Assembly: GCF_021044585.1 (NCBI RefSeq)
Contig: NZ_CP087998.1
Coordinates: 1,116,001-1,180,000, forward strand
Direction of reading: 5' to 3'
DNA from: Sulfurimonas sp. HSL-3221
GTDB taxonomy: Bacteria > Campylobacterota > Campylobacteria > Campylobacterales > Sulfurimonadaceae
DNA: 64,000 nucleotides
A program made the translations under genes and the position numbers. The notes below the pieces were generated by a model that was given only the letters and a program-made list of their open reading frames with translations, was not told where the DNA came from and ran no database searches. Below, piece after piece: positions 6,832 to 23,965 of the stretch. Within the stretch, counting starts at the first letter, position 1. Every line of letters starts with the position of its first letter.

Positions 6832-6872
6832 TTACAGATGTAACCCCCACTTTACCGTGCCTCCTGTATAAT
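6832..6872 (+). promoter_or_regulatory. Promoter and palindrome upstream of the TauE/SafE gene
   Basis: TATAAT at 6867-6872 is a consensus -10, 27 bp before the start codon. Upstream lies the small dyad TTACA-GA-TGTAA (6832-6843), centred about 42 bp before the predicted transcription start. That is a typical place for an activator, but the binding protein is unknown. Confidence 0.5.
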
Positions 6873-6899
6873 CGCGCGAATCAACACACGGGGCGGCAG

Positions 6900-7652: not shown

Positions 7653-10461
7653 GATAACGATCACGGGCGCGCGGGAGCATAACCTCAAGGATATCTCCCT
7701 CGAAGTGCCGAAGAACAAGCTGGTCGTCTGTACGGGGCTCTCGGGCTCGGGCAAATCGACCCTCGCTTTTGATACCCTCTATGCCGAGGGACAGCGCCGC
7801 TACATCGAGAGCCTCTCCAGCTACGCCCGCCAGTTCCTGGACCGCATCGGCAAGCCCGACGTCGACAAGATCGACGGCCTCACCCCCGCCATCGCCATCG
7901 ACCAGAAGACGACCTCCAAGAACCCCCGTTCGACCGTCGGGACCATTACCGAGATCTACGACTACCTCCGCCTGCTCTTTGCCCGCATCGGTGTCCAGCA
8001 CTGCCACCTCTGCGGCAAGGAGATCTCGCAGATGTCCGCCGCGGATATCATCGAGCAGGTTCAGAAGCTCCCCGAAGGCTCCAAGGCCGTCATCCTTGCT
8101 CCGCTGATCCGCGAGAAGAAGGGAACCTTTGCCGACCTGATCGAGGGGCTGCGCCACAAAGGCTTCGTGCGGGCGATGGTCGACGGCGTCATGGTCCGCC
8201 TCGACGAGGAGATCGAACTCTCCAAAACGAAGAAGCATACCATCAAGGTCGTCATCGACCGTGTCGTCATCAAGGATGAGAACCGTGACCGGATCGCCCA
8301 GGACGTCGAAAAGGCGCTCAAGGAGAGCTACGGCGAGGTCGAAGTCGAGATCATGAACCATACCGAGATGGACCTGACCGCGAACATCATCCACTACAGC
8401 GAGCACAACGCCTGTTTTGACTGCAAGGTGAGCTTCGAGCCCCTCGAGCCGCTCAGCTTCTCCTTCAACTCCCCCAAGGGTGCCTGCCCCGAGTGCGACG
8501 GCCTCGGCATCCGCTACGCCCTGGACCACGACAAGATCATTGACGGGGATCTCTCCATCGAGAAGGGTGCCGTCAAGATCGTCTACGGTTTCAACAAGGG
8601 GTACTACTTCACCTTCCTCAAAGGCTTCTGCGAGACGGAGGGGATCGACATCACCGTCCCGTTCCGCGAACTGGAGGAGCACCAGAAGAAGGCCATTTTG
8701 CACGGCAGCATCAACGAAGTGACCTTCAAGTGGAAGAACCACCTGGTGAAAAGGATCTGGCCGGGGATCATCCGTATCGCCTATGACATGTTCAAGGACG
8801 AGAAGGATATCCAGGACTACATGAGCGAGAAGGTCTGTAATGTCTGCGGCGGCCACCGCCTGCGCCGGGAGAGCCTTGCCGTCGACGTGGCGGGGCAGAA
8901 GATCAGCGGGGTCATTGCCCAACCCATCGAGGATACCTACCGCTGGTTCACGGCCGAGGACACCTTCGCCTTCCTCGGCGAACAGGACCGCATGATCGCC
9001 GCGCCCATCCTCAACGAGATCCGCGAACGTCTCTTCTTCCTCTTCGACGTCGGCCTCGGCTACCTGACGCTGAGCCGCGACGCCCGGACCATCAGCGGGG
9101 GCGAGGCGCAGCGCATCCGCATCGCCAGCCAGATCGGCAGCGGGCTGACGGGTGTCATGTACGTCCTCGATGAGCCCTCCATCGGCCTGCACGAACGCGA
9201 CACCCTCAAACTCATCCGGACCCTGCGCTCTTTGCAGGAGAAGGGGAACACCGTCATCGTCGTCGAGCACGACAAGGAGACGATCGAACACGCCGACCAC
9301 ATCATCGACATCGGTCCCGGGGCGGGGCAGTTTGGCGGGGAGGTCGTCTTCTCGGGCTCCCTCAAGCAGCTCATGAAGGCAAAGACGGAGACGGCGGCCT
9401 ACATGACGGGCAAGAAGAAGATCGAGTACTTCTACCGCCGCGAGCAGACGGAGTGGATCGAGATCAAGAACGTCACCATCAACAACATCGAGGACCTCTC
9501 CGCCCGCATCCCGCTGCAGAACCTCGTCTGCGTCACCGGCGTGAGCGGCAGCGGCAAGAGCTCTCTCATCCTGCAGACCCTGCTGCCGACGGCGCGGGAG
9601 CTGCTCAACCGCGCGCGCAAGGTGCACACCGTCGCCGGCGTCGAGATCACGGGGCTGGAGCAGCTCGACAAGGTGATCTACCTCGACCAGAGCCCCATTG
9701 GACGCACCCCGCGCTCGAACCCGGCGACCTATACGGGGCTGATGGACGAGATCCGCAACCTTTTTGCGAAGACGAAGCTCTCCCAGATCCGCGGTTACAC
9801 GGCGAGCCGCTACAGCTTCAACGTCAAGGGCGGCCGCTGCGAGAAGTGCCAGGGGGAAGGGGAGCTCAAGATCGAGATGCACTTCCTCCCCGACATCATG
9901 GTCAAGTGCGACGCCTGCGGCGGCAGCCGCTACAACCCGCAGACGTTGGAGATCGAGTACAAGGGCAAGTCCATTGCCGACGTCCTCAACATGAGTGTCC
10001 AGGAGGCGTTGACCTTCTTCGACGCCATCCCGAAGATCAAGGCGATCCTCAAGACGCTGAATGACGTGGGCCTGGGCTACATCACCCTGGGGCAGAACGC
10101 CGTCACCCTCTCGGGCGGGGAAGCGCAGCGCATCAAGCTCTCCAAGGAGCTCAGCCGCAAAGATACGGGCAACACCCTCTATATCCTTGACGAGCCGACG
10201 ACGGGGCTTCACTTCGCCGACGTCGACCGCCTCACCCAGGTGCTGCACCACCTCGTCGAACTGGGCAACTCCGTTCTCGTCATCGAGCATAACCTCGATA
10301 TGGTCAAGAACGCCGACTACATCATCGACATGGGCCCAGAAGGGGGCAGCAAGGGCGGCCGCATCATCGCCGTCGGCGACCCGGAAACGGTGGCATCAAT
10401 GGCCGACGACACCGGCAGCTACACCGGCGAGTACCTGAAGAAGGAACTCCCAGCGCAGTAA
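7645..10461 (+). CDS. uvrA: Excinuclease ABC subunit A
   Basis: UvrA is the ABC-type ATPase that, with UvrB, finds bulky DNA lesions for nucleotide excision repair. The 938 residues contain two nucleotide-binding domains. The first has Walker A TGLSGSGKST (about 31-40) and signature ISGGEAQRIRIA (about 485). The second has TGVSGSGKSS (about 632) and LSGGEAQRIKLS (about 823). Both zinc modules are present: CHLCGK in the first half with the CFDC/CPEC pair, and CEKCQGEG with CDACGG in the second. The start begins MDKITITGAREHNLK, as in the family. Length is normal. Confidence 0.98.
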   Translation: MDKITITGAREHNLKDISLEVPKNKLVVCTGLSGSGKSTLAFDTLYAEGQRRYIESLSSYARQFLDRIGKPDVDKIDGLTPAIAIDQKTTSKNPRSTVGTITEIYDYLRLLFARIGVQHCHLCGKEISQMSAADIIEQVQKLPEGSKAVILAPLIREKKGTFADLIEGLRHKGFVRAMVDGVMVRLDEEIELSKTKKHTIKVVIDRVVIKDENRDRIAQDVEKALKESYGEVEVEIMNHTEMDLTANIIHYSEHNACFDCKVSFEPLEPLSFSFNSPKGACPECDGLGIRYALDHDKIIDGDLSIEKGAVKIVYGFNKGYYFTFLKGFCETEGIDITVPFRELEEHQKKAILHGSINEVTFKWKNHLVKRIWPGIIRIAYDMFKDEKDIQDYMSEKVCNVCGGHRLRRESLAVDVAGQKISGVIAQPIEDTYRWFTAEDTFAFLGEQDRMIAAPILNEIRERLFFLFDVGLGYLTLSRDARTISGGEAQRIRIASQIGSGLTGVMYVLDEPSIGLHERDTLKLIRTLRSLQEKGNTVIVVEHDKETIEHADHIIDIGPGAGQFGGEVVFSGSLKQLMKAKTETAAYMTGKKKIEYFYRREQTEWIEIKNVTINNIEDLSARIPLQNLVCVTGVSGSGKSSLILQTLLPTARELLNRARKVHTVAGVEITGLEQLDKVIYLDQSPIGRTPRSNPATYTGLMDEIRNLFAKTKLSQIRGYTASRYSFNVKGGRCEKCQGEGELKIEMHFLPDIMVKCDACGGSRYNPQTLEIEYKGKSIADVLNMSVQEALTFFDAIPKIKAILKTLNDVGLGYITLGQNAVTLSGGEAQRIKLSKELSRKDTGNTLYILDEPTTGLHFADVDRLTQVLHHLVELGNSVLVIEHNLDMVKNADYIIDMGPEGGSKGGRIIAVGDPETVASMADDTGSYTGEYLKKELPAQ

Positions 10462-16229: not shown

Positions 16230-16568
16230 GTGGAATGGAAAGTGGAGTTTTACACGGATGAGAAGGGCGCTAAACCGGTAAAAGAGTGGATGCTGGGATT
16301 GGAAGCGAGTGCCCGTTCTGCCCTGATGCGCAATGTGGATTTGCTGGAACGGATGGGCCTGGGCATACGCGAGCCCTATGTGAAGTATTTGGAAGAGAAA
16401 CTCTACGAAGTCAGGGCGAAAGACCGCAGTGGCATTTACCGGGTTATTTATTTTGCCCACACGGGAAAACGGTTCGTCCTTTTACACGGGTTTGTCAAAA
16501 AGACGCAGAAGACACCCCGAAAAGAGATTGAGATTGCGAAGCAACGGATGAGGGAGATGATGAAATGA
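16230..16568 (+). CDS. HigB/Gp49-like (RelE superfamily) toxin
   Basis: The 112-residue protein belongs to the phage Gp49-like branch of RelE toxins, which cleave mRNA, usually on the ribosome. Marks are WKVEFYTDEKGAKPVKEWM at the start, the middle YVKYLEEKLYEVRAKDRSGIYRV (substrate-groove strands) and the basic C-terminal FVKKTQKTPRKEIEIAKQR. It has a GTG start at 16230, with a near-leaderless arrangement behind the operator dyad. The toxin gene comes first and overlaps the antitoxin by 4 bp (ATGA), as in higBA loci. Confidence 0.9.
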   Translation: MEWKVEFYTDEKGAKPVKEWMLGLEASARSALMRNVDLLERMGLGIREPYVKYLEEKLYEVRAKDRSGIYRVIYFAHTGKRFVLLHGFVKKTQKTPRKEIEIAKQRMREMMK

Positions 16569-16837
16569 GTGAATTTCAAGATTTTTTGAAAGAGCAGTTG
16601 AAAGATGAAAAGTTCAAAGCGGAGTGGGACAGGCTGGAGCTGCGCTACAGGGTCATTGAGCAGATTCTGAAACTCCGCATGAAGTATGACCTGACGCAGA
16701 AGCAGTTTGCGGAAAAGGTCGGAACGACACAGGCCGTCATCTCCCGCATCGAAAACGGCAATGTTAACATCGGGATTGACTTTCTGGATCGTGTGGCCAA
16801 GGCGTTTGGGAAAAAAGTCGAAGTGAAGCTGATATGA
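16565..16837 (+). CDS. HigA-like XRE-family antitoxin
   Basis: The 90-residue protein has an N-terminal helical region that would cover the toxin, and a Cro/C1-type helix-turn-helix: MKYDLTQKQFAEKVGTTQAV and then SRIENGNVNIGIDFLDRVAKA. It would neutralise the upstream toxin and repress the operon through the dyad at 16186-16207. Its start overlaps the toxin stop. Its own stop overlaps the start of ywbE by 4 bp, so YwbE is translated from the same message. Confidence 0.92.
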   Translation: MSEFQDFLKEQLKDEKFKAEWDRLELRYRVIEQILKLRMKYDLTQKQFAEKVGTTQAVISRIENGNVNIGIDFLDRVAKAFGKKVEVKLI

Positions 16838-17041: not shown

Positions 17042-20014
17042 TTACTGTTTTGGTGATTTCTCCGTATACTCTTCGCTTTCTTCCGCCGCCATCATGGCGT
17101 TGCCGGAAATAGCATGGGCATAATTCGAAGAATTAGCCGCTTTCTCCGTAGAAGAACCGAGACTCCCTCCGCCATCATAGAACTTCTCTACAAAGCCCAT
17201 AATCTTACCTAGTACTCTCGGTACGATCTTTTTGCGTTCAAGCAGTTTCGGTTTGACGTTGAGCGTATTGGCGATGTCGTCTTTTAGCGGGGATCTGCCG
17301 TCATAGAGGTAGGTGTCGATGACCTTGTTGACTTCTGCTTTGTTGAGGTTTTCTTCCTCACAGAGCGCGTCGAAGGCTTTGATCTGCTCATCATCCCAGA
17401 ACTTTTCGAACGCATCGTCGATCAGGTCGTCGTCTTCGATGTGCATCAGGTGGTCGTCGATGAACTTCTCGATCAGCTCGCGTTTGCTGCGGAGGCTGGG
17501 CTGAGCGTTGATGATGCTGACGATGGTGTCACGCTGCTTCTGCTGCTCTTCTGTTTTTGCCTTTCTATATTTGGCCAGGAGTTTGAGGATATAGGCAACA
17601 TTGATCTCGTCCTTATGGATGAGCTCCAGTTCAAAGTCGATCTCCTGCAGGACAGAGACCTTTTCCGTTTCATTGCGGCTTTTGGCCCGCTCGTAGAGAT
17701 CAAGGTATTTGGACTTGTAGTCTTCAAAGAGTTGTTCCGCCATGGAGAGGTCGTTCCAGTCGAAGTCGGCAAAGCCCTCCAGAATATTTCTCACCCGCAT
17801 CAGTTCCCGGAATGCCTTGATGAATTCCAGCTGCTTCTCTTCGTCAATGATAGCATCAACGCTATTGATGCTCGGGGCAATGGCAATGAGCTTCGCGAAA
17901 GCCTCGTTGAACTTCTCGACGTACTCTTCGTAAGGCCCCATGAGAATCTTGTCTTTTTTATCTAAATCAGAGAAGAGGGCAATGGCATCGTCGGTCGCTG
18001 TTTTTAGGTTGCGGAAGCAGACGATATTCCCCTGCGATTTCGTCTCGCCCAGGATGCGGTTGGTACGTGAGAAGGCCTGGATAAGACCATGATATTTTAG
18101 GTTCTTGTCGACGTAGAGAGTGTTTAGGGACTTGGAGTCGAAGCCCGTGAGGAACATGTTGACGACGAGCAGGATGTCGACTTCACGCTGTTTCACCCGT
18201 TTGGAGATGTCGTTGTAGTAGTTGTAGAAGCTCTGGCTGTCTTTGGTGCTGAACTTCGTGCCGAACATAGCGTTATAGTCGTCAATGTACTCGTCGAGCT
18301 TCTCGCGGCTGTGCTTGTTGATGTGCTCTTCGTCCACTTTCGTCTCGTCGAAGTCGATCAGCCCGTTGGCGTCTTTGTCCTCCTCGTTGGCACTGTAAGA
18401 GAAGATCGTGGTGATCTTGAGGTCGTGCTTCTTGCTCTTGAAGGTCTCATAGTACTTAGTGAGCATGTCGACGCTGCCGACACACATCATCGCCGTAAAC
18501 TCTTTTGAGTGGGTCTTGCGCGGATGGAAGGAGAGGATGTAGTCGACGATCTTTTCAATCCGCACGGGGCTTTCCAGCAGCTCCTTGGTGTCGATGGCTT
18601 CTACTTCGATATCAAGCTCGTTTGCGCTCTCTTTTTCTTTGTAGCGCCCGATATACTCCACCGAAAACTTCAATACGTTGTCGTCGCCGATGGCGTCGGT
18701 GATGACGTAACGGTGCAGGCGCTCGCCGAAGAGGTCGGCGGTCGTGCGCTTGCCCAGCTTGTTTCCGACGGCGTTTTCTTCAAAGATGGGGGTTCCCGTA
18801 AAGCCTATCATCTGTGCCTTTTCGAAGAAGCGGGTGATGTTGCGGTGGGTCTCTCCAAATTGGCTGCGGTGGCATTCGTCGAAAATGAAGACGACGTGCT
18901 TGTCCCGCAACTGCTCCATCTCGTTTAGGTAGCGTGTTTTGCTGATAGCGGTGTTGAGCTTTTGGATCGTCGTGATGATAAGGTCGGTTTGGACGTGCTG
19001 GCCCTTTTTGTCTTTGTGGCGTCCGAGGAACTGGTCGACGAGGATCTTCGTGTTGTCCGTGCCGTCGACACTCCCTTCGGAGAAGCTGTTGAACTCTTTG
19101 CTCGTCTGGAAGTCCAGGTCCTTGCGGTCGACGACGAAGACGACCTTATGGACGTGGGGAAGCTTGACGAGAATCTGCGAAGCTTTGAACGAAGTGAGGG
19201 TCTTACCCGAGCCGGTCGTGTGCCAGATGTAGCCGTTTTTGTCGCTGTTCTGCACCCGGTCGATGATCGCCTCGACGGCATGGAACTGGTAGGGACGCAG
19301 CACCATCAAAATCTTCGGCACCTCCGCTAGCACGATGTACTTGCAGATCATCTTGGAAATGTGGCACCGCTCGAGGAAAACCGAGGTGAAGGCTTCGAGC
19401 TGGGTGATGTTGAGGTTCTCTTTGTCCGCCCAAAAGAATGTCTGTTTGAAAGTTTGTTTCTTGTTGTTGGCGTAGTACTTGGTGTTGACGCCGTTGGAGA
19501 TGACGAAGAGCTGTACGTAGTTGAAAAGAGCACTGTTGTAGCCGTAGGAGTGACGCTGGTAGCGGTTGATCTGGTTGAAGGCCTCTTTGAGCTCGACGCC
19601 CCGTCGTTTGAGCTCGATCTGCACGAGGGGCAGGCCGTTGATGAGCAAGGTGACGTCGTAGCGGTTCTTGTACTTCCCTTCGATTGTCACCTGCTGCGTG
19701 ACCTGGAAAAGGTTCTGGCACCAGTGTTCGGAATCCAAAAACTCGATGTAAGCCGTCGTGCCGTCATCCTTGGGCAGGGCGAATTTGTCCCGCAGGATCT
19801 TCGCCTTTTCGAAGACGTTGCCTTTGTTCAGATGGTTGAGGATGCGGCCGAACTCGGTATTGCTGAGCGAGGTTTTGTTGTGCTTTTCGAGCTGGCGCTT
19901 GAGGTTGGCTTTGAGGGCCTCTTCGTCCTGGATGATAACTTTTTCATAGCCCAGTTCTTCGTTGAGCTGCTTGACAAGATTGGCTTCGAGGACGGCTTCG
20001 GGTTGCTTACTCAT
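17042..20014 (-). CDS. hsdR: Type I restriction enzyme, R subunit
   Basis: HsdR is the motor and nuclease of a Type I restriction complex, translocating unmethylated DNA and cutting at a distance. The 990-residue protein has an N-terminal PD-(D/E)XK nuclease (YDVTLLINGLPLVQIELKR, with Asp, Glu and Lys, about 118-137). The SF2 translocase has TGSGKT (about 267), DECHRSQ (about 385) and GFTGTPIF (about 410), then a second RecA domain with VNMFLTGFDS and QAFSRTNR. The C-terminal helical region binds the HsdM2S core. It is the last gene of the locus on this strand and overlaps the preceding gene by 8 bp. Confidence 0.96.
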   Translation of the reverse strand: MSKQPEAVLEANLVKQLNEELGYEKVIIQDEEALKANLKRQLEKHNKTSLSNTEFGRILNHLNKGNVFEKAKILRDKFALPKDDGTTAYIEFLDSEHWCQNLFQVTQQVTIEGKYKNRYDVTLLINGLPLVQIELKRRGVELKEAFNQINRYQRHSYGYNSALFNYVQLFVISNGVNTKYYANNKKQTFKQTFFWADKENLNITQLEAFTSVFLERCHISKMICKYIVLAEVPKILMVLRPYQFHAVEAIIDRVQNSDKNGYIWHTTGSGKTLTSFKASQILVKLPHVHKVVFVVDRKDLDFQTSKEFNSFSEGSVDGTDNTKILVDQFLGRHKDKKGQHVQTDLIITTIQKLNTAISKTRYLNEMEQLRDKHVVFIFDECHRSQFGETHRNITRFFEKAQMIGFTGTPIFEENAVGNKLGKRTTADLFGERLHRYVITDAIGDDNVLKFSVEYIGRYKEKESANELDIEVEAIDTKELLESPVRIEKIVDYILSFHPRKTHSKEFTAMMCVGSVDMLTKYYETFKSKKHDLKITTIFSYSANEEDKDANGLIDFDETKVDEEHINKHSREKLDEYIDDYNAMFGTKFSTKDSQSFYNYYNDISKRVKQREVDILLVVNMFLTGFDSKSLNTLYVDKNLKYHGLIQAFSRTNRILGETKSQGNIVCFRNLKTATDDAIALFSDLDKKDKILMGPYEEYVEKFNEAFAKLIAIAPSINSVDAIIDEEKQLEFIKAFRELMRVRNILEGFADFDWNDLSMAEQLFEDYKSKYLDLYERAKSRNETEKVSVLQEIDFELELIHKDEINVAYILKLLAKYRKAKTEEQQKQRDTIVSIINAQPSLRSKRELIEKFIDDHLMHIEDDDLIDDAFEKFWDDEQIKAFDALCEEENLNKAEVNKVIDTYLYDGRSPLKDDIANTLNVKPKLLERKKIVPRVLGKIMGFVEKFYDGGGSLGSSTEKAANSSNYAHAISGNAMMAAEESEEYTEKSPKQ

Positions 20015-21077
20015 GAGTATCTACTATATCGATTTCATTTGAAACAATAATTTTGTATTTTGGTGCGAATCCAATATCAAAACCTGACTCACCTTGATTA
20101 AGAAAATCACTATCTTCTTTCTTCTTAATTATCTCAATTCTTGTCATGACATCTTCGTCAGCTCTTTTAGCAGATGTGGCCAATGTAACTTCTTTCCATT
20201 CACCCTCTTCCATTACTTCATCTTGATTTAATGAATATTTTTCATTGTTATAAACCTTCTTGATTATTTTGTTGGTATAAGAGTTATTTTTACTAAAAAT
20301 TGAATCACATATTAGACTTTGCCATGTAGACGCGACAGGGTAAATATATTTACTACTATGTACATGCAAATCATCAAATGTAGGGTTTATTGAGTTGAAT
20401 ATACTCTTCATATAATGTGCATCGACAATGGAACATCCGTAGTGTTGATAAGATGTATGTTGAGGACTGTAGTTATATAAAAGATATAAAGGATACCCTT
20501 TCTTTTTTGATGCGTAATTGATTAAATCTGTATTTTGATTTTTGTAAGGAATTTGTTCGTACTTATTGCTTGGATAAAGAACTTTTGCTTGCATTGGAAA
20601 AAACAAGTATTTACCATTTGGCTGTTGAACAAAAAACTCAATATCATTTCCATTGACTCTTTCGTTTATTGCTTCAAATGCTTTTACTTGTTTAAAAGTG
20701 CAATGTTCAGAAAACTTAGCTAATTCGAACAATAAATTTTGGGTTATGGTTGTTTCAAATAATTTCAACTGACTTGCATTAGTTCTTGTAAACTTGAGTC
20801 TATACCAAGTATCATGAGATAAATCAGTCATTTTAGTACATAAGTTACAATCTTCAATCAATATCTTATTCGAAAGAGCCATCATTTTATTGTATTCTGT
20901 ATGGTATGCCGGTTTATCCAATGTAGTAGCAATATTAAAAAAGTCTCTTGCTTTAATTCCTGTTGAACTGAGTTCTTTGGCATGGAGTAAAATTTGCTGA
21001 TGAAATGTTGCAATTTTATCGCCTGAAGATGCAGTATTAACGGCACTCTCAATGTTTGTTATTAATTTCATATCCAT
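20007..21077 (-). CDS. DUF6615-like protein, candidate PD-(D/E)XK nuclease, inside the Type I R-M locus
   Basis: The 356-residue gene sits between hsdS and hsdR and overlaps hsdR by 8 bp. The central region, ERVNGNDIEFFVQQ followed by GKYLFFPMQAKVLYP and later DLINYASKKKGYPLYLLYNY, resembles DUF6615. In that family a G-x-D-x-E strand and a Q-A-K strand look like the metal-binding core of a restriction-like nuclease. It is much more AT-rich than the rest of the window, with Asn, Lys and Tyr-rich composition, so it was probably acquired separately. Family assignment is from memory of the pattern. Nuclease activity and a defence role are inferences. Confidence 0.62.
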   Translation of the reverse strand: MDMKLITNIESAVNTASSGDKIATFHQQILLHAKELSSTGIKARDFFNIATTLDKPAYHTEYNKMMALSNKILIEDCNLCTKMTDLSHDTWYRLKFTRTNASQLKLFETTITQNLLFELAKFSEHCTFKQVKAFEAINERVNGNDIEFFVQQPNGKYLFFPMQAKVLYPSNKYEQIPYKNQNTDLINYASKKKGYPLYLLYNYSPQHTSYQHYGCSIVDAHYMKSIFNSINPTFDDLHVHSSKYIYPVASTWQSLICDSIFSKNNSYTNKIIKKVYNNEKYSLNQDEVMEEGEWKEVTLATSAKRADEDVMTRIEIIKKKEDSDFLNQGESGFDIGFAPKYKIIVSNEIDIVDTHE

Positions 21078-21154: not shown

Positions 21155-22390
21155 TTACACAAACATCTGCTGGAGCAGTCCTTTTTTGAATTGCTTGACG
21201 TTTTCCAGCTCTTTGGCGACGAGGTCGATTTTGGTGTTGATAGATGATAGGAAGTCGGCTATTTTGGTTTGTTCTTCAAGACAAGGTACATCTAATTTTA
21301 ATTGATTTAAATCTTTAAGATTTACAACTTGTTGAGCAGAGCCAGCACTTGGTTTTAAAACATCTTTACGACCGACATGAGAATTAAGATACTGCACAAT
21401 AAAATAATTATTAATGTTTTGATTGAATCTTAAAAGCCCTACAGCTCTAGAAATATTGTGACCAACTAGTTCATTAGGAATGATTGCAGCCTCACCAGGA
21501 TAACCAACTAATGCGATGACGATATCATTAAGTTGTAAAGTAGTTCTCTTATATTCTTTAGCAATTTTTTCAGATACTAAAGGCAAGTCAGTGTTTACTG
21601 TGCTGTTTTTGATATCTCCGCCTCTAACCATTTTGATTCCTGAGTCAAGGAAATTACCAGCTTTTACAATGCCATAGGTAGCTTTTATCTGAAGATATTC
21701 ATTCAGATACTTCTCCTCCCACTCCGGAAAATCACTCCCGTCATCCGCTTTAAAGCGAATTTCCTGCGAGAAGATTTTTTGCATCACCCCTTTTTTGTAC
21801 TGCTCAAGCAGCTCCTGTTTTTTGGTGAGCTCTTCGATCTTGGTATCGACAGCGGTGAGGAAGGAGGCGGTTTTGTGTTGTATATCAAGTGATGGGATGT
21901 CGATTTTCCATTTAAACCAATCTGAAAGTTTGAAGATCATCTTTTCCACATGAACTCCAATACTAGAGTGAAAACAAGTTTGCTGAAAATATACAGAGTG
22001 ACTAAGATATTTCAAATATTGTGAATCTATTAGTGGCGTCGTTCTTAAGACAGAGTATTCATTGGAGACAATACTTCCACCAAATTCGCTAGTCACTAAT
22101 GCACAGGCACCATGAACAATTTGACGTTTTGAAATAACAAAATCACCTTCTGCAATTTTAAATTGAGATTGAACGGAGATTTTTTTACCTTTCATAATAG
22201 CACGTTCTTCAATGCCGCCACGCGATCTTTTTATAGTAATTAACCTATAGTCCTCGTCGTCTTTGAGTTTAACTGGTCTTTTTTCTTCATAAAGTAAATC
22301 ACCGATGTGAACCCTACGATACCCATTTTTCAATTTTCCTAATTTTGGAATCCCTGGCTGCACTGATTTTGGATACGTTGAATGACTCAT
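21155..22390 (-). CDS. hsdS: Type I restriction-modification specificity subunit
   Basis: HsdS recognises the bipartite target for both methylation and cleavage. The 411 residues show the usual duplicated plan: a first target-recognition domain (about 20-175) ending in a conserved helix with IQHKTASFLTAVDTKIEEL, and a second (about 215-375) ending EEQTKIADFLSSINTKIDLV. The central linker EWEEKYLNEYLQIK starts the second repeat. The two recognition domains are AT-rich and the helical spacers GC-richer, which fits exchange of recognition domains. Two half-sites of unknown sequence are expected. The start is 12 bp after hsdM. Confidence 0.93.
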   Translation of the reverse strand: MSHSTYPKSVQPGIPKLGKLKNGYRRVHIGDLLYEEKRPVKLKDDEDYRLITIKRSRGGIEERAIMKGKKISVQSQFKIAEGDFVISKRQIVHGACALVTSEFGGSIVSNEYSVLRTTPLIDSQYLKYLSHSVYFQQTCFHSSIGVHVEKMIFKLSDWFKWKIDIPSLDIQHKTASFLTAVDTKIEELTKKQELLEQYKKGVMQKIFSQEIRFKADDGSDFPEWEEKYLNEYLQIKATYGIVKAGNFLDSGIKMVRGGDIKNSTVNTDLPLVSEKIAKEYKRTTLQLNDIVIALVGYPGEAAIIPNELVGHNISRAVGLLRFNQNINNYFIVQYLNSHVGRKDVLKPSAGSAQQVVNLKDLNQLKLDVPCLEEQTKIADFLSSINTKIDLVAKELENVKQFKKGLLQQMFV

Positions 22391-22402
22391 AATGATGAGA
22401 TC

Positions 22403-23965
22403 CTAAAATGGTGCTGGAATATCAAGCTCTTTACAGAACTCGGCAATCTGTGCATCGGTAGTTTTCATATCCGTTTCAAGGGCTTTGAGTGCGCCGGTGA
22501 CCGCATCCAGATCGACCGGTTCCTCTTCCTCGAAGGTGTCGACATAGCGAGGAATGTTGAGGTTGTAGTCATTCTCCTTGATCTCGTCGAGTGTGGCGAG
22601 GTGCGAGTACTTTTCTATCGCCTCCCGGTTGCGGTAGGTGGCGATGATCTTCTCGACGTTGGCATCGGTCAGGATGTTTTGGTTCTTGGCCTTCTCGAAC
22701 TCGCCCGAAGCGTCGATAAAGAGGACATTGTCACTTGCCTCGCGGCACTTTTTAAAGACTAATATACATGTGGGAATACCAGTACCGTAAAAAATATTTG
22801 CTGGCAAACCAATGACGGCGTCGAGATAGTTCCGGTCCTCGATGAGGTAGCGGCGGATGTGCCCCTCAGCCGAGCCCCGGAAGAGCACGCCGTGGGGCAG
22901 GACGACCGCCATGGTGCCGTTGTCGTCGAGCTGGTAGATCATGTGCTGGACGAAGGCGAAGTCTGCCTTGGAGGAGGGTGCGAGCCTGCCGTATTGGCTA
23001 AAGCGGTCGTCGCTCATGTGGAGCGGATTCGCCGACCATTTGGCGGAGAAGGGGGGATTGGCCACGACCGCTTCGAAACGCTGCTCCGTGTGCTGAGGGT
23101 GTTCGAGGGTGTCTTCCTGCTTGATGTCGAACTTGCGGTAGTGGACGTCGTGCATGATCATGTTCATGCGGGCTAGGTTGTAGGTGGTGCGGTTGAGCTC
23201 CTGCCCGTAGAAGTTGGAGACCTCCTCGACCTCCTTGGCAACGCGCAACAGCAGCGAACCGGAGCCGCAGGTCGGGTCGTAGACGGACTTGAGCTTGCTC
23301 TTGCCCGTCGTGACGATCTTGGCGAGGATCTTGGAAACTTGCTGCGGGGTGTAGAACTCCCCCGCCTTCTTGCCCGCACCCGCCGCGAACTGTCCGATAA
23401 GGTACTCGTAGGCATCGCCGAGAACGTCCCGGTCGTGGCTCTTCAGTTCGAAGTTGATGGCATCGAGATGGGAAAGCACCTTAGCGATAAGCGTGTTCTT
23501 CGCCGCTTCGGTCCGGCCCAGTTTGGTGCTGGTAAGGTCGAGGTCTTCGAATAGGTGGATGAAATCGTCCTCGCTCTCGTGCCCCATTGTCGTCTGCTCG
23601 ATGTTGCGCAAAATCTGCGTCAGGTCTTCGAGAATGAAATTATTTTCGTCTGCATTTCCGCGCTTAGCAATCTCGCTAAAAAGTTCGGAAGGTTTGAGGA
23701 AATAGCCCAGTTTCTCGATAGCCTCTTCCTGGATGGCTTCAAGTAGTTCTTTACCGTCATCTGTTACTTCGTCGATATCAAGGTACTTGATGCCGTCTTC
23801 GACGAGGATAGTGTCGGCGTAATCTTCCATCTTTTCGGAAAGGTACTTGTAAAAAATAAACCCGAGGATGTAGTCACGGAACTCATCCGCATCCATCTTC
23901 CCGCGAAGCGTATTCGCGATGTTCCAAAGCTGCTGTTCTAAAATCTTTTTGTTCTCTTCACCCAA
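22403..23965 (-). CDS. hsdM: Type I restriction-modification methyltransferase subunit
   Basis: HsdM makes N6-methyladenine at the site chosen by HsdS. The 520-residue protein begins with the N-terminal helical domain ILEQQLWNIANTLRGKMDAD. It has SAM motif I, YDPTCGSGSLLL (about 225), and the catalytic motif IV, ANPPFSAKW (about 295). A TTG start at 23963-23965 is needed to keep the conserved MGEENKKILEQQ N-terminus. The next Met is after residue 20. Minus-strand TATAAG (about 23979-23984) and TATACT (about 24006) are -10 candidates. It leads the operon hsdM-hsdS-nuclease-hsdR. Confidence 0.96.
   Translation of the reverse strand: MGEENKKILEQQLWNIANTLRGKMDADEFRDYILGFIFYKYLSEKMEDYADTILVEDGIKYLDIDEVTDDGKELLEAIQEEAIEKLGYFLKPSELFSEIAKRGNADENNFILEDLTQILRNIEQTTMGHESEDDFIHLFEDLDLTSTKLGRTEAAKNTLIAKVLSHLDAINFELKSHDRDVLGDAYEYLIGQFAAGAGKKAGEFYTPQQVSKILAKIVTTGKSKLKSVYDPTCGSGSLLLRVAKEVEEVSNFYGQELNRTTYNLARMNMIMHDVHYRKFDIKQEDTLEHPQHTEQRFEAVVANPPFSAKWSANPLHMSDDRFSQYGRLAPSSKADFAFVQHMIYQLDDNGTMAVVLPHGVLFRGSAEGHIRRYLIEDRNYLDAVIGLPANIFYGTGIPTCILVFKKCREASDNVLFIDASGEFEKAKNQNILTDANVEKIIATYRNREAIEKYSHLATLDEIKENDYNLNIPRYVDTFEEEEPVDLDAVTGALKALETDMKTTDAQIAEFCKELDIPAPF

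Follow-up and report, generated by a model that had tools for sequence, protein, structure and literature searches.

In the 64,000 nucleotides of the Sulfurimonas sp. HSL-3221 genome analysed here (positions 1,116,001–1,180,000 of NZ_CP087998.1; hereafter the window, whose own numbering is used unless another locus is named), an intact Type I restriction-modification (R-M) operon on the minus strand contains an additional gene, which we call X. The gene order is hsdM-hsdS-X-hsdR, and the genome is a single contig of 2.52 Mb. X (20007–21077, minus strand) starts with ATG and encodes 356 amino acids, comprising an HTH_73 domain and a DUF6615-like region with a predicted PD-(D/E)XK nuclease core. 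We conclude that X is exchangeable defence cargo of the same kind as PrrC, RloF, DarTG2 and TgvAB, because the content of the hsdS-hsdR slot changes among 22 related operons and nucleotide homology to a sister species has an exact border at this place. For the fuller reading, in which this cargo serves as an accessory defence nuclease of a Type IC-like operon, we judge the chances to be about even.

The nuclease core was placed at residues ∼104–225 of X (20403–20768, minus strand) from the order of secondary-structure elements in an AlphaFold model, from structural matches to Hjc and RecU, and from the better model of a relative. We aligned X with 20 relatives from plasmids and prophage-like contigs and including an orthologue, and found eleven columns that are invariant in the 21 sequences: E108, T112, E139, G143, D145, Q163, A164, K165, Q181, L185 and Y201. 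E108 (20754–20756) lies in the first core helix, D145 (20643–20645) is the predicted metal-binding aspartate, Q163-A164-K165 (20583–20591) forms a (D/E/Q)xK motif on the third core strand and Q181 (20535–20537) begins the second core helix, all read on the minus strand. This pattern corresponds to a predicted PD-(D/E)XK active site of the QxK type.

In the model of X, the core consists of a helix (108–121), three strands (128–133, 146–151 and 157–167), a second helix (181–191) and a last strand (197–202), giving an alpha-beta-beta-beta-alpha-beta order; D145 falls at the second strand and QAK lies on the third. It is built on the two segments, NGNDIEFFV (residues 142–150) and PMQAKVLYP (residues 161–169), that an initial annotation of this DNA had picked out as strands of a PD-(D/E)XK core. 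A DUF6615 relative from a viral contig (L020) is modelled better, with a predicted local distance difference test score (pLDDT) of 79 and a predicted template modelling score (pTM) of 0.79, and also has the PD-(D/E)XK core. When the models were compared with solved structures, as that annotation had suggested, the nearest nucleases to X were RecU (Z 10.7, root-mean-square deviation (rmsd) 3.0, 132 residues aligned) and Hjc (Z 10.5, rmsd 3.0, 120 aligned), with many restriction enzymes and SPARDA nucleases ranking behind them. For L020 they were Hjc (Z 9.6, rmsd 2.9, 117 aligned) and RecU (Z 9.3, rmsd 3.2, 135 aligned). Searches by sequence against solved structures were not informative. Because the core is present in two models and its E108, D145, QAK and Q181 residues are invariant in all 21 sequences, we regard the predicted PD-(D/E)XK fold of X, in the QxK variant, as well supported.

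The top structure match for both X and L020 was the human Rab effector Rep15 (PDB 8a4a-8a4c), with a Z of ∼11.5 that placed it above the true nucleases. We considered whether this conflicts with a nuclease fold and dismissed the conflict, as Rep15 is itself described by its authors as resembling the Hjc resolvase (PMC9308819); the match is uninformative on function. Rep15 may be a derived PD-(D/E)XK fold.

That the nearest nuclease folds are Holliday junction resolvases also fits a role for X in the restriction reaction itself, for example in processing the ends or junctions that arise from HsdR translocation, with a junction preference like that of Hjc or RecU. A gene of this kind adjoins hsdR in two different Type I systems, as described below, which is in keeping with such a role. 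Fold likeness does not, however, establish a substrate; orphan relatives of X are plentiful, and in many of the related operons the slot holds different cargo or is without any. We therefore consider this role highly improbable.

The HTH_73 domain (PF24718) covers residues 4–71 of X (20865–21068, minus strand) and passes the Pfam cut-off of 27 bits with a score of 31.3 (E 1.9e-7). It had been missed by the initial annotation, was recovered independently by a genome search and aligns with other HTH_73 domains. This domain would be the DNA-binding part of X. Elsewhere in related genomes HTH_73 forms the N-terminal part of McrB-like AAA proteins and also occurs as small free-standing proteins. 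Two AAA_5 proteins (L007 and L009) carry it N-terminally, and one small free HTH_73 protein (L013) is encoded behind the gene of an AAA_21-type ATPase and one further, unassigned gene.

The initial annotation had called X DUF6615-like, which was upheld by tblastn and by the invariant residues, although the Pfam match is weak: residues 135–232 reach only 14 bits (E 0.035) against DUF6615 (PF20320), under its gathering cut-off of 23.8 bits. Against the same cut-off, the orthologue of X in genome G378 scores 22.5 bits (E 9e-5). Using X as a tblastn query, we found genes on two plasmids, a DUF6615 gene from Streptomyces (E 2e-7) and another gene from Spirosoma (E 1e-13), and an alignment-based viral scan gave seven relatives on viral contigs with E values of 9e-9 to 2e-13, computed over the candidate stretches only. 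The tblastn match at 2e-7 and the common pattern of invariant residues are the reasons for taking X as homologous to DUF6615; judged from sequence, it is a divergent relative that lies outside the family as Pfam draws it. The plasmid and viral-contig relatives in the alignment are without HTH_73.

Searching PADLOC-DB with X gave Cas11f as the sole match (E 0.025, outside the core), and the relatives of X matched nothing there. No model of an HTH_73-DUF6615 family was found in PADLOC, PHROGs or NCBIfam, and DUF6615 is not mentioned in the literature searched. The suggestion that this locus is an unreported combination thus survives at the level of the gene family and fails for the arrangement, which is already known from PrrC, RloF, DarTG2 and TgvAB; it is the HTH_73-DUF6615 family within it that is new.

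The other genes of the operon, all on the minus strand, are hsdM (22403–23965; 520 amino acids; Pfam N6_Mtase and HsdM_N), hsdS (21155–22390; 411 amino acids; Methylase_S) and hsdR (17042–20014; 990 amino acids; HSDR_N, SWI2_SNF2 and EcoR124_C). HsdR is of the EcoR124/IC type, and the operon is Type IC-like. The coordinates bear out the earlier placing of X between hsdS and hsdR: its stop overlaps the start of hsdR by 8 bp (20007–20014, minus strand, ATGAGTAA). X thus lies inside an intact hsd operon and on the same strand, as expected of an accessory gene embedded in a Type I locus in the manner of the restriction-linked (rlo) genes. A promoter scan gave 14 matches compared with 10.9 in shuffled sequences (standard deviation 2.9), which is not a clear enrichment, and none of the matches fell within the gap between hsdS and X. 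Just 3′ of hsdR, on the opposite strand, there is a HigBA-like pair consisting of a Gp49-like (DUF891) toxin gene and an HTH_3/HTH_37 gene (16230–16837, plus strand).

There is a marked difference in base composition along the operon. X, described from the outset as AT-rich, has a GC content of 30.4% (24% at third codon positions), against 51.6% (75% at third positions) for hsdR, 53.7% for hsdM and 56.7% for the window, and hsdS is likewise low at 36.9%; hsdS has also been replaced relative to the sister species. Therefore, on composition, X is a recent import and the present hsdS is probably one too. The foreign composition common to both genes, together with the rarity of X, could also be expected of a selfish or decaying passenger that was imported by chance with the new hsdS and has no present role. 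Yet the open reading frame is intact, the catalytic positions are retained in 21/21 sequences and the core is 59% identical to that of the orthologue, compared with 31% and 28% in the two ends. A passenger without function is very unlikely on these grounds.

The orthologue in G378, a genome from another genus, is found in the same gene order, hsdM-hsdS-X-hsdR. HsdM is 82% and HsdR 77.5% identical between the two operons, and X is 46–48% identical. Since an orthologue of this identity occupies the same place in a different genus, the position of X is not due to chance. A distant DUF6615 gene on a Vibrio gigantis plasmid directly follows the hsdR of another Type I operon, with an overlap of 1 bp, and the Spirosoma relative is flanked by genes for a UvrD/REP helicase and a DNA methylase. 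In three related prophage-like viral contigs (L020, L021 and L023), the DUF6615 gene lies within the head-gene module, as a moron. The DUF6615 copies in L024 and L033 are split into two frames.

Our view of the wider spread of X rests on 397 genomes of the phylum and 200 genomes of the family. No relative was returned when 84,980 genomes were scanned with X alone or with a three-sequence alignment. The viral scan also gave nothing with X, with the orthologue or with the three-sequence alignment, but relatives were found when six-sequence alignments were used. A Pfam search for DUF6615 across the phylum had no match, and as its controls were equally silent this is no sign of absence.

To describe the hsdS-hsdR slot we compared 22 operons with an HsdR ∼70% identical or more: 20 that were found through HsdR, the present one and that of G378. 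Of the 22, 18 hold cargo and four have a nearly empty junction (8, 9, 14 and 223 bp); for G235, neither hsdM nor hsdS could be identified in the stretch retrieved. The remaining operons have one to four cargo genes in the slot, drawn from at least 10 cargo families. The cargo includes Fic, RhuM, Shedu (SduA, in G341), Mrr_cat (in G187), an NgoFVII-type phospholipase D (PLD) nuclease, DUF4268/NucS, Abi_C, Abi_2 and Abi_alpha, and further DUF3800, SMEK, DUF2326, DUF2971, DUF4917, pentapeptide and Phd/YefM genes. The content at one and the same place is therefore variable, as in rlo loci. The survey of hsdS-X-hsdR loci proposed in the initial annotation thus yielded both an orthologue of X at the same position and a changing cargo, and its general remark that auxiliary genes in Type I loci are often defence effectors agrees with the finding that genes of defence type usually occupy the slot.

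The borders of the exchange are shown by the sister species G288, in which HsdR is 95% identical and the slot holds different cargo genes. Nucleotide homology between G288 and the window ends near the end of hsdM (22425), reappears as a brief patch inside hsdS and restarts exactly at the hsdR ATG (20014). The G288 slot (L073) also contains two copies of the hsdS 3′ end, at reverse-strand positions 6844–6887 and 8136–8179. One is behind cargo gene 1; the other is at the start of cargo gene 3, where it adjoins an apparent remnant of the hsdR 5′ end. Copies of the hsdS end are also present in the slots of G167, G106 and G261 (L077, L088 and L092). The copies, 38–61 bp in size across all these slots, look like scars left when cargo was stacked or swapped by recombination at the hsdS-hsdR junction.

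The proteins encoded by one cargo gene in G288 (L073:7192–8202, minus strand) and one in G395 (L082:6260–7243, plus strand) are related, with 44% identity, and in both the last part of the chain is a copy of the C-terminal domain of HsdR (residues 879–948; profile E 8e-20 and 7e-17). The C-terminal region of EcoR124 HsdR is reportedly linked to complex assembly and DNA binding (an observation attributed to Grinkevich in 2018), so that HsdR-tailed cargo may attach to the Type I complex much as HsdR does.

Docking of cargo on the complex is thus plausible for the slot, and one reading of X is a guard like PrrC, held inactive by the Type I complex until a phage anti-restriction protein frees it to cut DNA (or RNA), with cell death or arrest as the outcome. 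PrrC comes from a Type IC operon, by which it is sequestered until T4 infection releases it, and the HsdR next to X is of the same EcoR124/IC type. The stop-start overlap of X and hsdR would in addition help to synchronise their expression. No HsdR-like C-terminal tail was found in X, however, and Pfam and PADLOC searches gave neither an ABC ATPase with the anticodon nuclease (ACNase) triad nor any other PrrC feature; an orphan DUF6615 gene would, moreover, have no partner to hold its product. We consider a guard of this type unlikely. A broader proposal is that the hsdS-hsdR junction in the EcoR124-like family is a dedicated dock, where hsdS and cargo are swapped as a unit by recombination between hsdM and the start of hsdR, leaving scars of the hsdS 3′ end and the hsdR 5′ end between stacked cargo. 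The cargo, HTH_73-DUF6615 here and proteins with an HsdR-type docking tail elsewhere, would then be functionally linked to the Type I enzyme, a second nuclease being turned on whenever restriction is lost or inhibited. This we regard as decidedly speculative and quite unlikely in full.

As an accessory nuclease, X would most likely provide a second layer of attack on DNA that has got past the Type I enzyme, a view that draws on analogy with other systems. X would be produced together with the Type I enzyme, would bind DNA through HTH_73 and would make metal-dependent cuts in invading DNA that the enzyme had not stopped. Modified or site-poor phage DNA are examples of possible targets, with TgvAB in the same slot as a parallel. 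Several observations weigh against an accessory defence nuclease in the slot. X is rare, occurring in 2/397 genomes of the phylum (this one and G378), and the same pair are the only ones among the 200 family genomes. Most of the DUF6615 genes encountered lie on plasmids or among the head genes of prophages, as orphans lacking Type I neighbours; DUF6615 therefore needs no Type I partner. The AlphaFold model of X has a low mean pLDDT of 55, with values of 60–87 in the core.

A Type IV-like activity would be another way of complementing HsdR, which cuts unmethylated DNA: HTH_73 or the core would sense modified bases and X would cut modified phage DNA. TgvAB in the same slot of Vibrio cholerae depends on modification, related genomes have HTH_73 at the start of McrB-like AAA proteins, Mrr and MspJI carry QxK instead of ExK, and an Mrr_cat gene fills the G187 slot. 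QxK is found in modification-independent nucleases as well, though, and a Pfam search of X gave no EVE, SRA, YTH or DUF262 reader domain. Among solved nucleases, the folds of Hjc and RecU come nearest, rather than those of Mrr or McrC; no entry for the latter two is listed among the structure matches, an absence that does not exclude them. We assign this activity a low probability. Nor did we find anything linking X to methylation state, which the initial annotation had suggested as the control of a second nuclease.

For DUF6615, a domain of unknown function, these results predict a role as a PD-(D/E)XK nuclease whose E/D/QxK residues are invariant, and the HTH-nuclease fusion of X is a new addition to the accessory gene repertoire of Type I loci. 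The survey provides a clear case of the hsdS-hsdR junction as an exchangeable slot for defence genes, whose cargo border falls on the hsdR start codon. Should cargo prove to be held physically on the Type I enzyme, which the HsdR-tailed genes hint at, a general guard logic extending beyond PrrC would become testable.

Several known systems resemble X in part. PrrC is embedded in the EcoprrI Type IC operon, where it is kept latent by its enzyme and released upon T4 infection (PMC2610378, PMC3874165). It is an extra nuclease within a Type IC operon, as X is predicted to be; in contrast, it is an ABC-ATPase tRNA anticodon nuclease whose Hsd-held latency has been shown, whereas X has a predicted DNase-type fold and no ATPase. 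DarTG2, from the RRDM island of enteropathogenic Escherichia coli (EPEC), is inserted between hsdS and hsdR, a site described by its authors as a possible hotspot of recombination for defence systems (PMC12255303). It shares the insertion site with X but is an ADP-ribosylating toxin-antitoxin system and not a nuclease. TgvAB, from Vibrio pathogenicity island 2 (VPI-2) of V. cholerae, is a modification-dependent nuclease system between hsdS and hsdR that adds to Type I defence (PMC11411939). Nuclease-type defence genes, putative in the case of X, occupy the hsdS-hsdR slot in both operons as a complementary layer; TgvAB differs in consisting of two GmrSD (DUF262) family proteins with an experimentally shown modification dependence, and no sequence relation to X was found. 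RloF is a further precedent in this slot (PMC11411939). The rlo genes of Campylobacter jejuni resemble X as variable genes in Type I loci, with rloF between hsdR and hsdS, and differ from it in their products, RloC being a PrrC-like tRNase and RloF belonging to DUF262/GmrSD; the literature examined on rlo genes names no HTH_73-DUF6615 member. The DUF6615 members that we met are mostly orphans without HTH_73, and X is under the Pfam cut-off, but they have the same core pattern of E, G(A/N)D, QAK and Q and some are linked to R-M genes. Finally, the Shedu (G341) and Mrr-like (G187) cargo belong to different nuclease families and have no HTH_73, but they are nucleases of the PD-(D/E)XK kind, as predicted for X, and occupy the same slot.

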